NCBI GenBank assembly: GCA_944324395.1
Contig: CALUWC010000007.1
Span: forward strand, 62,001-126,000
From: Candidatus Gastranaerophilales bacterium
GTDB lineage: Bacteria; Cyanobacteriota; Vampirovibrionia; Gastranaerophilales; Gastranaerophilaceae
Length of the DNA: 64,000 bases
Direction: 5' to 3'
In this document: in pieces, positions 55,254-60,129 of the stretch
How the letters are laid out: each line of letters begins with the position of its first letter
Numbering within the stretch: position 1 is the stretch's first letter
The notes under the pieces: generated by a model
What the model saw: only the letters and a program-made list of their open reading frames with translations
What the model was told of the DNA's origin: nothing
The model's database searches: none
Position numbers and translations under genes: made by a program

Positions 55254-55376
55254 CTATTTTAAATAATTTTAGCTGGATTTGCTACATAAGTCCAAAATAC
55301 TAAATATAATTATAAACAACCGGCTAATTACATTTAACAGGGAACATTTATAATGAACATAAAGGAGAAACTCAAA

Positions 55377-55607
55377 ATGCTTGATTTATTCATAATACCA
55401 AACTGCCCGTACTGCCAAAAAGTAGTCAAATTCATGGATAAAAACAAAATAGTATGCAATGTTTTTGATACAAATGACAATGATAATGCTCTAAGATTAT
55501 TATCCATAGGCGGTATAGATCAAGTACCATTTTTATATAACGAAGAAACAAACGAAAAAATATACGATTCGAATAATATTATAGAATACTTGAAAAATTA
55601 CTATTAA
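55377..55607 (+). CDS. Glutaredoxin-like thiol oxidoreductase
   Basis: 76 residues, thioredoxin fold: active site CPYC in 'FIIPNCPYCQKVVKFM', cis-Pro segment 'GIDQVPFLY' and C-terminal 'YDSNNIIEYLKN'. ATG 55377 chosen because AAGGAG lies 8 nt upstream; an ATG 24 nt earlier has a weaker site. It is 11 nt upstream of the HCP-like gene, so the pair is an operon. Confidence 0.88.
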   Translation: MLDLFIIPNCPYCQKVVKFMDKNKIVCNVFDTNDNDNALRLLSIGGIDQVPFLYNEETNEKIYDSNNIIEYLKNYY

Positions 55608-55618
55608 CAGGAATGACT

Positions 55619-57223
55619 ATGCAATACAACAATGAATACAAAAATACATATATAGATATTAACGAATGCACATCTCGGGGTGCCTGTTCAATATCTCCAA
55701 CTATATCTGCACTACAGGAACTTGCAATACAAATATTACAAAATCTTTCACATTATATTCTTCAGTTAGAAGAAATGGGTGCAAACAATAATAATATAAA
55801 ATATGAAATAATTACTGTTCTTGCAAGCTTGATATCAGTTAACGAATTTAGTGATAAACAATTATATGAAATAATATTAAAAGAATACTATATGCTGACA
55901 AACTCAAAGAAAGCATATAATGAACTTTGTTCCGCAAAAAATATTATACCGAAAGACCTGCGTAAAATTATAAAAATAAATAATTCAACATCCATTTCTC
56001 AAGCAATTGCTCTGGGCGAAAAAATATTTTTTGAGAAATATAAAAAATTAACTGTCGAACAAAAAAATTTAATGACATTATTGCTTATTGTAATAAAAAG
56101 TACAAGCTTAAATATGGTAAAATTATCGGATTTCAAAGTATTTGAAGAGGACACATACCATAAAATATTAACCATACTTGATACATTTAATCACTACAAA
56201 GTTTCTTCCAAAAAGATACAGGAAATGACAGAAGAATTATCCGAACATAACATCAAATTACAACTAAAAATAAGCGAATTGATACCTGAAACATTTGGCA
56301 GCATTGAAAAAACAGAAGTTTCACATTCTACAAGCAAAGGAAAAGCAATACTAGTATCCGGAAATAATTTATTTGACCTTTATAATGTCCTAAAAGCAGC
56401 AAAAGATGAAGATATCGGAATATATACACATTCAAATCTATTGATAAGCCATGCTTTAAAAAAATTCAAAGAATTTAAAAACTTGAAAGGTCATTTCGGA
56501 AACAAAACAGAAAATTGTATATTGGATTTTGCGACATTTCCGGGGGCAATACTTATTACAAAAAATTCAAAAAACACACCGGAATATCTGTATAGAGGCA
56601 GATTATTTTCGAATGATTATATAGTACCGGATGGTGTTATAAAAATTGAAAATAATAATTTTAAAGAATTGATAGACTCTGCAAAAAAAGCAAAAGGATT
56701 TTCAAAAGGAAAAATTAAAGATAATACTACCATCGGCTACAATGAAAAAAACATTATAAAAGAATTTGACTTAATAATAAAAAAAATAAAAAACAATCAA
56801 TTAAAAAAATTATATATAATAGGAATTGATGCACATCTAGAAATGCAAAAAGAATACTTTAATGAACTATTTTCAAATATCAAAGATTGTGAACAGGTAA
56901 TAAGTTTTTCATATACAAGTAATAAAAATAATATCTTGACTATTCCTGTAGGAGACTACATGGCTTTAGCTACAAAACTCTTAAAAATATTATTTACAAA
57001 ATATCCTGCTACAAGTGAAAAAATCGTGTTTTTCTTTACAACTTGTGATGTTATGACAATTTCAAACATCATAGCTCTCAAAAAAGAAAAGGTTAAAAAT
57101 ATCTACATAGCAAAATGCCCGCCAACACAAGTCAACCCATCGGTCTTAGAAACTTTTAAAAATAAATATAAAGTTAAAATAACAACCAATGCAATTGACG
57201 ATTTAAAAAATATTAGAAAGTAA
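55619..57223 (+). CDS. Hybrid-cluster-protein homologue lacking the cluster ligands
   Basis: 534 residues co-linear with class I hybrid cluster protein (HCP, hydroxylamine/NO reductase), e.g. 'RGACSISPTISALQELAIQI', 'GKAILVSGNNLFDLYNVLKA', 'FPGAILITKNS' and 'PPTQVNPSVLETFKNKYKVK'. By motif comparison the hybrid-cluster ligands are all replaced or lost: SGH->SGN (~247), THGE->THSN (~268), TNC->KNS (~316), GGCDG->IGIDA, GCGKY->PVGDY, the QCNDA segment deleted, WYEQK->TTCDV. Of the N-terminal cubane Cys only 'CTSRGAC' remains. Probably not a redox HCP; a pseudoenzyme or new activity is inferred. Start ATG 55619 (AGGA 6 nt upstream). Confidence 0.8.
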   Translation: MQYNNEYKNTYIDINECTSRGACSISPTISALQELAIQILQNLSHYILQLEEMGANNNNIKYEIITVLASLISVNEFSDKQLYEIILKEYYMLTNSKKAYNELCSAKNIIPKDLRKIIKINNSTSISQAIALGEKIFFEKYKKLTVEQKNLMTLLLIVIKSTSLNMVKLSDFKVFEEDTYHKILTILDTFNHYKVSSKKIQEMTEELSEHNIKLQLKISELIPETFGSIEKTEVSHSTSKGKAILVSGNNLFDLYNVLKAAKDEDIGIYTHSNLLISHALKKFKEFKNLKGHFGNKTENCILDFATFPGAILITKNSKNTPEYLYRGRLFSNDYIVPDGVIKIENNNFKELIDSAKKAKGFSKGKIKDNTTIGYNEKNIIKEFDLIIKKIKNNQLKKLYIIGIDAHLEMQKEYFNELFSNIKDCEQVISFSYTSNKNNILTIPVGDYMALATKLLKILFTKYPATSEKIVFFFTTCDVMTISNIIALKKEKVKNIYIAKCPPTQVNPSVLETFKNKYKVKITTNAIDDLKNIRK

Positions 57224-57328: not shown

Positions 57329-58090
57329 ATGAACAAATTAAGAAATGAACTGGACCAGCTTATTGACTCTATAGATAATAGTGGTCAAATAAGAGAATAC
57401 ATAAATAACCAAGATTATATTTCACCTTTTAGCAAAGAAGGCTGTCAAATAGCCTATCTTATGTCAAAAGGAGTGATTGATTTTGAAAAATACATGCAAA
57501 TATCAAGAGAGTATGCTATAAGAAACAAATACCTCTATTTATATGACATGGCTCCAAGAACCTTTGGTGAAACCTGGGGAGAAAACCATATTCTAGCACT
57601 ATATCCAGACACATTTATAAAAGCAACAAGAAAATCTATGATTGATTTATACCCCAACTATGCCGGAGAATTTGATCTATTTTTAGATGGACTGAGAATT
57701 GAAGTTAAAGCGTGCAGAGCAAACAAAGACAAATTTAATAAAAATGCCGCCAGCCTGAGCAGCAGAGCTTATTCAAGAGAAGAGGCAATTAAATACAACT
57801 TTGAATATCATTACCAGCAGCTAAAACCATCTTGCTGTGATGCTTTTATTTGGATTGGAGTCTGTAGAGATGAAATACTTTATTGGGTACTAACAAATGA
57901 AGAAGTAAAGAATTGTCCAAAGTTCTGCCCGCAGCACAGAAATGAAAATACCGGAATAAAAAGTGGTACAATATTTGAAGGACAAGTATTTATGAATGAA
58001 AATGATTTAAAACCATATCTTGTCAATCAAAATGAAATACCTTCTATTATTAAAACAAAATGCATAAATTTATCATTCAGCAAAAGTTAA
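57329..58090 (+). CDS. Type II restriction endonuclease (PD-(D/E)XK fold), putative
   Basis: 253 residues. The catalytic motif reads 'GEFDLFLDGLRIEVKACRA', i.e. Asp116 then Glu125-Val-Lys127, a canonical PD-(D/E)XK core. 'FGETWGENHILALYP' precedes it. No helicase or methylase part. Identification as a restriction enzyme rests on this core plus the convergent methyltransferase, whose stop codon overlaps this gene's stop by 4 bp (TTAA shared). GGAGG is 5 nt before the ATG. Recognition site unknown. Confidence 0.8.
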   Translation: MNKLRNELDQLIDSIDNSGQIREYINNQDYISPFSKEGCQIAYLMSKGVIDFEKYMQISREYAIRNKYLYLYDMAPRTFGETWGENHILALYPDTFIKATRKSMIDLYPNYAGEFDLFLDGLRIEVKACRANKDKFNKNAASLSSRAYSREEAIKYNFEYHYQQLKPSCCDAFIWIGVCRDEILYWVLTNEEVKNCPKFCPQHRNENTGIKSGTIFEGQVFMNENDLKPYLVNQNEIPSIIKTKCINLSFSKS

Positions 58091-60129
58091 ACCAAAAACA
58101 TATTTTTACCGGATAACGCTGATTTTACAACAGAATAATCACTTTCTGTTAATCCATACAGAGCAGATATTTGCAAATCCAGCTGTTCATAAATTCTTTC
58201 AAGTTCAGACAGCTCAGTCGCATTTTGTATTACATCAACCATATTTATAATCTGTTTTTGGGCAATAACTGCAGCTTTTGGAATCGGAATTTGCTCTATA
58301 TGCGAACGTAAAACTTTTACAGAATTGAATTTCCTTGAGTAATAAAACTGTGCGACCCTGGAATTCAAAACTGCCATTATATATTTTATGTCTAAATCTT
58401 TAAGTTTCGGGATTAAAATATTACAACTATTTAACGATAATGTTTTATTGGAATCATAAGCAAATACCAGTTGATTACAAATAAAACGATAAAGCAGTTT
58501 TTCTTCAGCTCTGTAATACTCAACCGGTGCAACCTGCTGAAATTTTTCAGGAATAAATTCAATAAAACTATCAGGTGATTTAAATCTAAATTTGCAAATA
58601 TCAGAACCTTTTAGAATCATTTCATTAGCAGGAGTTTGAATACTAGAAATATATTCCTTGTTGTTTCCTGTAACAATACCAAGAGCAAAAACAGCATTAT
58701 TTTCTAAGGTAACCTTATTTTTGATATTTTCTATCTTCGATAAAACATCAAATTCATCATCAGTCATCAGAAAAGACAAACAATCCGCACTGAATTTCCG
58801 ATCTTGTTTTATAGTAAAAGTTCTGGTTCCGTCATTAACCTGTATCGCACAATTTGAAGTCTTATCATCAAGTCTGGTCATCAAAATTATACTAGGACAC
58901 TGAACTTTATCAAAAGCATTGCCTAAATATTCAACATACTGAATTTTTGATGACATTAACATGTAATCCCTGATAGGAGCATGCGTCCTAACATTCAAAA
59001 ATGCTTCGGGCAAAACAAAAGCAAGAATGCCTCCTATTTTTAAGGATTTTAATGATTTTTCGACAAACACATCATACGATTCAATATTAGTCCCTACTGC
59101 AGATATATATAGTTTTCGCAGATTATCAGCATCTGAAGATGAAAAATCATATCCCCAAGGAGGATTACCAATAATAAAATCATATTTATTCACTTCATAG
59201 TCAAAAAGATAGTTACTTTCAGTTATATGAGAATAAATAATATTCTTATCACGAATATTATATTTTAATGCATAATTTAATCTTGCTATTTTTACACTGA
59301 CAGGATCTATATCATTACCGTAAACCATATCAAACGGAATATTCTCAGGCAGCTGCAAAATAAAATTTCCCGTACCGCAGCAGGGATCAAGGACAGACTT
59401 ATTATTAGTGTTATTGAGAGCAAATAAATTACTGCATAACTTTTTGACAATCTTAGTAGGTGTATAATATGCTCCGGAGGCTTTTCTTTCTGCCATATTC
59501 TTTAAGGATATATATAATAATCCCAAAATATCTTCGCCGTACTCGTAAATATAAGCATTACTAAATAGATGCTGATATTTCAAATAAATTTCATATGAAG
59601 AATCACAATTACAAAGTATATCAGAAATTAGATATGCATACTCAAATTGTAGATTATTCCCGGAAATAATATCAAATATAACAGCATTAGAAGGTTCTTC
59701 CCCGCGAAATCTGGAATAAATAAGACGTATTGCACAATCCGCAAGCAAAACATTTAACAAATCATCAGTAACTTCAATCTGCTCGTCTTTGATATAATCA
59801 ACAATAGACTGAATTAAAGGTAAATTTTGGGAATTCTCGGAAATATAAGAACAATAGATACTATTCCCTGAAACATATTTTTTATTTCTGCGGCTTTTTA
59901 ATGATGAATTGTAACCTGCAACAATATCATTTTTCAACTCTATAAGATAATCCGGATTAAATACAGGAGCTTTGCCAATCAATCTTGAAGGCTTAATTTT
60001 ACCTAATTTGAGCCAATTTTTACCGGTAGCAGTAGATATAGAAAGTTCTTTACATAAATCTGATAAAGATAAATAACTATCCTTTATTCCAGCAGTATTT
60101 TGTTTATATTCGGCAGATTTAACCGGCAT
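58087..60129 (-). CDS. N6-adenine DNA methyltransferase (gamma class) with N-terminal HTH
   Basis: 680 residues. Residues ~18-70: excisionase/MerR-type HTH ('LSDLCKELSISTATGKNWLK'). About 215-420: methyltransferase with AdoMet motif I 'VLDPCCGTGNFILQL' (~245) and catalytic motif IV 'IGNPPWGYDF' (~322), the NPPW type of TaqI-like N6-adenine enzymes. The C-terminal ~250 residues include a TaqI-like target-recognition region ('LKDLDIKYIMAVLNSRVAQF'). Protects DNA from the convergent nuclease. Own promoter on the minus strand; GGGGG ribosome binding site. Confidence 0.9.
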   Translation of the reverse strand: MPVKSAEYKQNTAGIKDSYLSLSDLCKELSISTATGKNWLKLGKIKPSRLIGKAPVFNPDYLIELKNDIVAGYNSSLKSRRNKKYVSGNSIYCSYISENSQNLPLIQSIVDYIKDEQIEVTDDLLNVLLADCAIRLIYSRFRGEEPSNAVIFDIISGNNLQFEYAYLISDILCNCDSSYEIYLKYQHLFSNAYIYEYGEDILGLLYISLKNMAERKASGAYYTPTKIVKKLCSNLFALNNTNNKSVLDPCCGTGNFILQLPENIPFDMVYGNDIDPVSVKIARLNYALKYNIRDKNIIYSHITESNYLFDYEVNKYDFIIGNPPWGYDFSSSDADNLRKLYISAVGTNIESYDVFVEKSLKSLKIGGILAFVLPEAFLNVRTHAPIRDYMLMSSKIQYVEYLGNAFDKVQCPSIILMTRLDDKTSNCAIQVNDGTRTFTIKQDRKFSADCLSFLMTDDEFDVLSKIENIKNKVTLENNAVFALGIVTGNNKEYISSIQTPANEMILKGSDICKFRFKSPDSFIEFIPEKFQQVAPVEYYRAEEKLLYRFICNQLVFAYDSNKTLSLNSCNILIPKLKDLDIKYIMAVLNSRVAQFYYSRKFNSVKVLRSHIEQIPIPKAAVIAQKQIINMVDVIQNATELSELERIYEQLDLQISALYGLTESDYSVVKSALSGKNMFLV

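Follow-up and report, generated by a model that had tools for sequence, protein, structure and literature searches.

A 64,000-nucleotide stretch of the genome of a Candidatus Gastranaerophilales bacterium (assembly GCA_944324395.1, contig CALUWC010000007.1, positions 62,001 to 126,000 of the forward strand; hereafter the window, in whose numbering all coordinates are given) carried two adjacent plus-strand genes, grx and hcpL, the second encoding a ligand-less homologue of hybrid cluster protein (HCP), named HCPL here. The upstream gene, grx (55377..55607), encoded a small dithiol glutaredoxin of 76 amino acids with a CPYC active site and a VPFL...YDS signature, related to the glutathione S-transferase (GST) N-terminal domain or Grx2 type. 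It was followed after 11 nt by hcpL (55619..57223), whose product counts 534 residues from M3. The reading frame was unbroken across 55613-57223, and the earliest possible ATG, at 55613, would give 536 residues; the second ATG, at 55619, is the probable start, because M3 is the alignment-wide start of the relatives and an AGGA lies six bases before that ATG. Residue numbers are counted from 55613.

HCPL matched the Pfam Prismane profile (PF03063) with 91.4 bits against a cut-off of 27, as expected for a member of the HCP superfamily, and all 79 members of the alignment of its relatives (A3) matched this profile as well. Scores for hydroxylamine reductase were well under the respective cut-offs (NCBIfam PRK05290, 190.8 bits, about half of the equivalog cut-off of 367; TIGR01703, 189.3 bits, cut-off 360.8). 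Searches against solved HCPs in the PDB gave 1.5e-32 by sequence and 1.4e-54 by profile, the latter with E. coli HCP over nearly the whole length. An AlphaFold model computed with 79 relatives in the alignment (pLDDT 88.8, pTM 0.89) matched solved HCPs, with the entries 1e1d, 8cnr, 1gn9 and 7de4 among them, along its whole length, with Z-scores of 31.5-32.4 across about 500 residues; these HCPs come from E. coli, Methanothermococcus, D. desulfuricans and D. vulgaris. Carbon monoxide dehydrogenases (CODHs; CODH type V and Ni,Fe-CODH), distant fold relatives whose cluster ligands HCPL does not possess, were far weaker matches (Z about 16-17). The sequence matches and, at the level of a model, the predicted structure confirmed the view of the initial annotation that HCPL is a full-length HCP homologue with the HCP fold.

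The same annotation had read all hybrid-cluster ligands as replaced or deleted and two of the four cubane cysteines as kept, and this reading held when HCPL was aligned with the canonical HCP of its own genome and with solved HCPs (ligand numbering of D. vulgaris HCP). None of the seven ligands (H244, E268, C312, C406, C434, C459 and E494) was kept; about 15 residues were deleted around the position of C459, and the position of E494 was occupied by another carboxylate (D479), which is Asp in 96 of 141 distinct relatives and thus not invariant. The four-cysteine cubane motif was incomplete, the first two cysteines being lost and the third and fourth of the class I motif retained as C19 and C25 (codons within 55667..55687). 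The ligands were not conserved elsewhere in the protein: 123 of the 141 relatives kept none of the seven, 15 kept one and three kept two. The canonical HCP, whose presence alongside HCPL the initial annotation had suggested checking, was encoded elsewhere in the same genome (G000:C9; 550.8 bits) with every ligand motif intact.

Overlooked in the initial annotation were two cysteines at the old pocket, near-invariant in the HCPL alignment and absent from HCP. In the profile alignment to solved HCPs, C478 (codon 57044..57046, inside the TTCDV motif listed by that annotation) stood directly before the position of the ligand E494, and C502 (codon 57116..57118) fell at the Thr of the GPTLPAF loop. 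Both were present in 136 of the 141 distinct sequences and both absent from the other five, one of which (L191) had a Cys one residue off; neither was ever found singly, so that the pair is conserved as a unit, as would be asked of a dithiol/disulfide oxidoreductase. On the tree, each of the two positions changed five times. C19 and C25 were Cys in 129 of the 141 relatives at each site, and were lost jointly in 10 sequences (one of them a truncated paralogue without the N-terminus) and singly in four. The two pairs were lost independently of each other, 10 sequences without C19/C25 keeping C478/C502 and four showing the reverse. Many of the residues invariant in HCPL fell in the pocket loops (K244, H280, D305, R328, C478 and C502).

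When the N-terminal [4Fe-4S] cluster was lost in a variant of class III HCP, two regions shifted together, one around the ligand Glu434, the counterpart of E494, and one around Trp461 (PMC10502027). Residue counting places Trp461, probably, in the same loop as C502. Because the Glu434 and Trp461 regions move with the N-terminal cluster, these data suggest that three loops adjoin one another at the former pocket, namely the N-terminal loop with its cysteines and those carrying C478 and C502, and C478 and C502 would then be close in space.

The grx product scored 34.8 bits with Pfam GST_N_3 and 28.6 bits with Glutaredoxin (cut-off 22.9), in agreement with its CPYC motif, and its pairing with hcpL, first remarked upon for the 11-nt gap in the window, recurred among relatives. 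All 80 best-scoring relatives, a sample that favours one subclade, had a glutaredoxin gene immediately before the HCPL gene on the same strand (gaps from -20 to 16 nt), and such a gene adjoined the HCPL gene at 51 of the 52 loci of the within-family set, L053 being the only one without. Over the 141 distinct members, 91 had this type of glutaredoxin next to them and eight a GrxC-like one. The GrxC-like pairs, in which the glutaredoxin gene again lay directly upstream, occupied a separate region of the tree, and the three that were inspected (L067, L071, L074) stood behind a gene for a TPR-type protein instead of between the wecB-like and rpsG genes. Judging from these sequences and gene orders, glutaredoxins of two types appear to have arrived at the HCPL gene in unrelated events, which is the best argument for a functional link. 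Active sites in 100 distinct glutaredoxins were mostly CPYC (81), followed by CPYS (10) and CPFC (6); the first cysteine was almost always kept, and the second was Ser in 10, an arrangement that would still permit a glutathione-type monothiol mechanism. Glutathione synthetase (GshB) was detected in 28 of 32 genomes, and the genome that carries the window encodes it as well.

HCPL appeared to be a near-universal feature of the Gastranaerophilales, which are gut bacteria. Matches were found in 41 of the 46 genomes of the genus and, within the family Gastranaerophilaceae, in 182 of 191 genomes and 39 of 41 genera, counts in which the lowest-scoring few may be canonical HCPs. Among 146 genomes of the class, only those of this family showed HCPL; outside the family, the four matches inspected all had canonical ligands, one of them (L081) with the N-terminal part missing in the open reading frame read. 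A scan of GTDB species genomes with a narrower HCPL alignment yielded 175 relatives. Of the best 80 of these, 54 were labelled Melainabacteria, Gastranaerophilales, Scatousia or Cyanobacteriota and 24 came without lineage, while the single entries labelled Muribaculaceae and Brachyspira were taken as mislabelled metagenome-assembled genomes. A single-protein query of genome contigs gave no matches, and no HCPL relatives were found in the viral contigs searched.

In a tree rooted on canonical HCPs, the ligand-less proteins formed one clade (SH-aLRT 100%), and a single ancient loss is therefore the simplest reading. The relatives had long open frames, with one clearly broken copy among the loci examined (G034/L100), and the ratio of non-synonymous to synonymous substitution rates (dN/dS) in close HCPL pairs ranged from 0.04 to 0.15 (median 0.09), consistent with the earlier claim that the intact frame is under selection and indicating purifying selection. 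When canonical and ligand-less forms were assigned by an E-value split of Pfam matches, 77 of 182 near-complete family genomes possessed a canonical HCP, 97 possessed the ligand-less form only and eight neither. HCPL is therefore not merely a partner of HCP, and, since those 97 genomes yielded no HCP homologue other than the ligand-less form, a Prismane match in Gastranaerophilales does not imply a hydroxylamine or nitric oxide (NO) reductase.

Several departures from the common arrangement were observed. Diverged ligand-less HCP genes occurred in tandem arrays, three at L062 (4620-9485) and two at L084 (429-3688), without an adjacent glutaredoxin, and one of the three copies had lost C19/C25. 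A subclade (L174-L197; genera g3, g21, g26, g36, g37 and g39) encoded shorter ligand-less HCPs of about 475-510 amino acids, also without an adjacent glutaredoxin, and some of its g26 members had lost C478 and C502 together.

As the ligands were lost, a cysteine pair was gained beside the old active site and a glutaredoxin gene is usually adjacent, HCPL probably performs thiol chemistry in place of metal chemistry. The fuller proposal, that it is a metal-free, or at least hybrid-cluster-free, thiol enzyme built on the HCP fold and served by glutaredoxin and glutathione, is held with about even confidence. HCPL would descend from a class I HCP and would have been fixed in the common ancestor of the Gastranaerophilaceae. 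The fold would have been kept and the cluster chemistry replaced by a redox-active C478/C502 pair on the two loops closing the former cluster pocket, with C19/C25, at the former site of the [4Fe-4S] cluster in the N-terminal loop, acting as a second, helping pair in most members. A small or protein-bound substrate, perhaps a nitrosothiol, a peroxide or another two-electron acceptor, could be reduced in the pocket, leaving C478/C502 as a disulfide or a mixed disulfide with glutathione, which the partner glutaredoxin and glutathione would then reset, presumably by direct contact. Other thiol reductases are served by glutaredoxins, including ribonucleotide reductase, the arsenate reductase ArsC, methionine sulfoxide reductases and Grx-dependent peroxiredoxins; the likeness lies in the proposed cysteine chemistry reset by glutaredoxin/glutathione and is an analogy only, the folds being unrelated to that of HCPL.

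Several observations weigh against this proposal. The joint loss of C478 and C502 went the same way in four of four independent pairs (p = 0.125), too few events for significance, and the few members without these cysteines still keep their frame. No glutaredoxin adjoined 42 of the 141 distinct members, including the whole subclade of shorter proteins, and three genomes (G002, G043, G048) possessed HCPL with no GshB detected. In addition, because the linked glutaredoxin was the sole PF00462 match in several genomes, it may serve other proteins too.

The main rival to the thiol-enzyme reading is that HCPL binds a different metal, such as a [2Fe-2S] or [4Fe-4S] cluster or mononuclear Zn or Fe, at a site built from C19, C25, C478 and C502, to which D479 or histidines might contribute, with the glutaredoxin possibly delivering the metal as a cluster carrier. 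Some glutaredoxin types do carry [2Fe-2S] clusters, four near-invariant cysteines that may lie close together if the loop arrangement of HCP holds would suit such a site, and the E494 position often bears a carboxylate (D479). However, the independent loss of the two pairs argues against one shared four-cysteine site across the family, although a two-cysteine site with other ligands is not contradicted by it, and the glutaredoxins here are CPYC or CPYS proteins, whereas cluster transfer is usually associated with the CGFS type. A new metal site is accordingly judged possible and rather doubtful.

The loss of every known catalytic ligand from a fold under strong selection, together with the persistence of some members without C478/C502, would also fit an inert pseudoenzyme with a binding or regulatory role, e.g. 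a thiol-based NO or redox sensor, or a scaffold, with a cysteine switch read by the glutaredoxin. This is considered unlikely, as the many invariant residues in the pocket loops suggest a working site and HCPL occurred without a canonical HCP in more than half of the near-complete genomes. As for a drifted hcp duplicate kept by chance, a canonical HCP in the same genome and the one relative with a broken frame are what decay might leave behind. Intact frames in 39 of 41 genera, a dN/dS of about 0.09 and invariant residues at roughly 30% identity make it exceedingly improbable, and the decaying-paralogue reading is refuted by the dN/dS and the near-universal distribution.

HCP and CODH are considered metal enzymes of ancient origin, with their clusters as the defining feature. 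If the thiol-enzyme reading is true, HCPL would clearly illustrate the natural conversion of a metal enzyme to thiol chemistry, lineage-wide and under strong selection, and it offers a test system for the HCP fold without iron, as part of the long-open question of HCP function. With class I/II HCP (prismane protein, hydroxylamine reductase), HCPL shares full-length homology, the three-domain fold, the helical N-terminal domain and the third and fourth cubane cysteines. Unlike them, it has lost the seven ligands, the other two cubane cysteines and the roughly 15 residues near C459, it possesses C478/C502, and its partner is a glutaredoxin and not a reductase such as Hcr. Class III HCP (Methanothermobacter marburgensis, 7E0L) has the same core domains and pocket loops, but still possesses the ligands of the hybrid cluster and has no counterpart of the long helical domain at the N-terminus of HCPL. 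Three HCP classes, all with a hybrid cluster, are described in PMC10210160 and PMC10502027, and the word glutaredoxin is absent from a 2026 survey of HCP/CODH gene neighbourhoods covering 1476 HCP genes (PMC13056359). A literature search, with most subscription journals outside its reach, found nothing joining HCP with Gastranaerophilales or Melainabacteria; within that scope, HCPL is new in the known HCP fold family and stands outside the three described classes. It might, tentatively and at somewhat less than an even chance, represent a fourth, lineage-wide kind of HCP in which an ancient Fe-S-O cluster enzyme became a metal-free thiol enzyme, the two-cluster electron path being replaced by two cysteine pairs and a dedicated glutaredoxin.

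Upstream of grx, a consensus scan picked out a promoter-like site on the plus strand (ATTACA-16-TATAAT, 55327..55354). In close relatives, the TATAAT region recurred upstream of grx, with a GCTAATTTA-like element about one -35 spacing further upstream. Both in the window (about 55318-55354) and in the upstream regions of L088-L115, the GCTAATTTA-like element preceded TATAAT and a clear TTGACA box was absent, an arrangement that could be an activator-dependent promoter. No FNR/HcpR-like palindrome, the operator type associated with the NO response, was present in the 78 upstream regions scanned, and a link to nitric oxide therefore gets no support from regulation.

Within HCPL, a further cysteine in the helical domain, C106 (55928-55930), seems conserved, a nearby alignment column being Cys in 124 of 141 relatives. 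Downstream, a type II restriction-modification pair (57329-60129) comprising a 253-aa REase_II (PADLOC, 1.3e-33) and a 680-aa MTase_II (1.1e-135) lay between hcpL and an rpsG-like gene. It looks inserted in the window, since rpsG follows about 45 nt after hcpL in several other genera.
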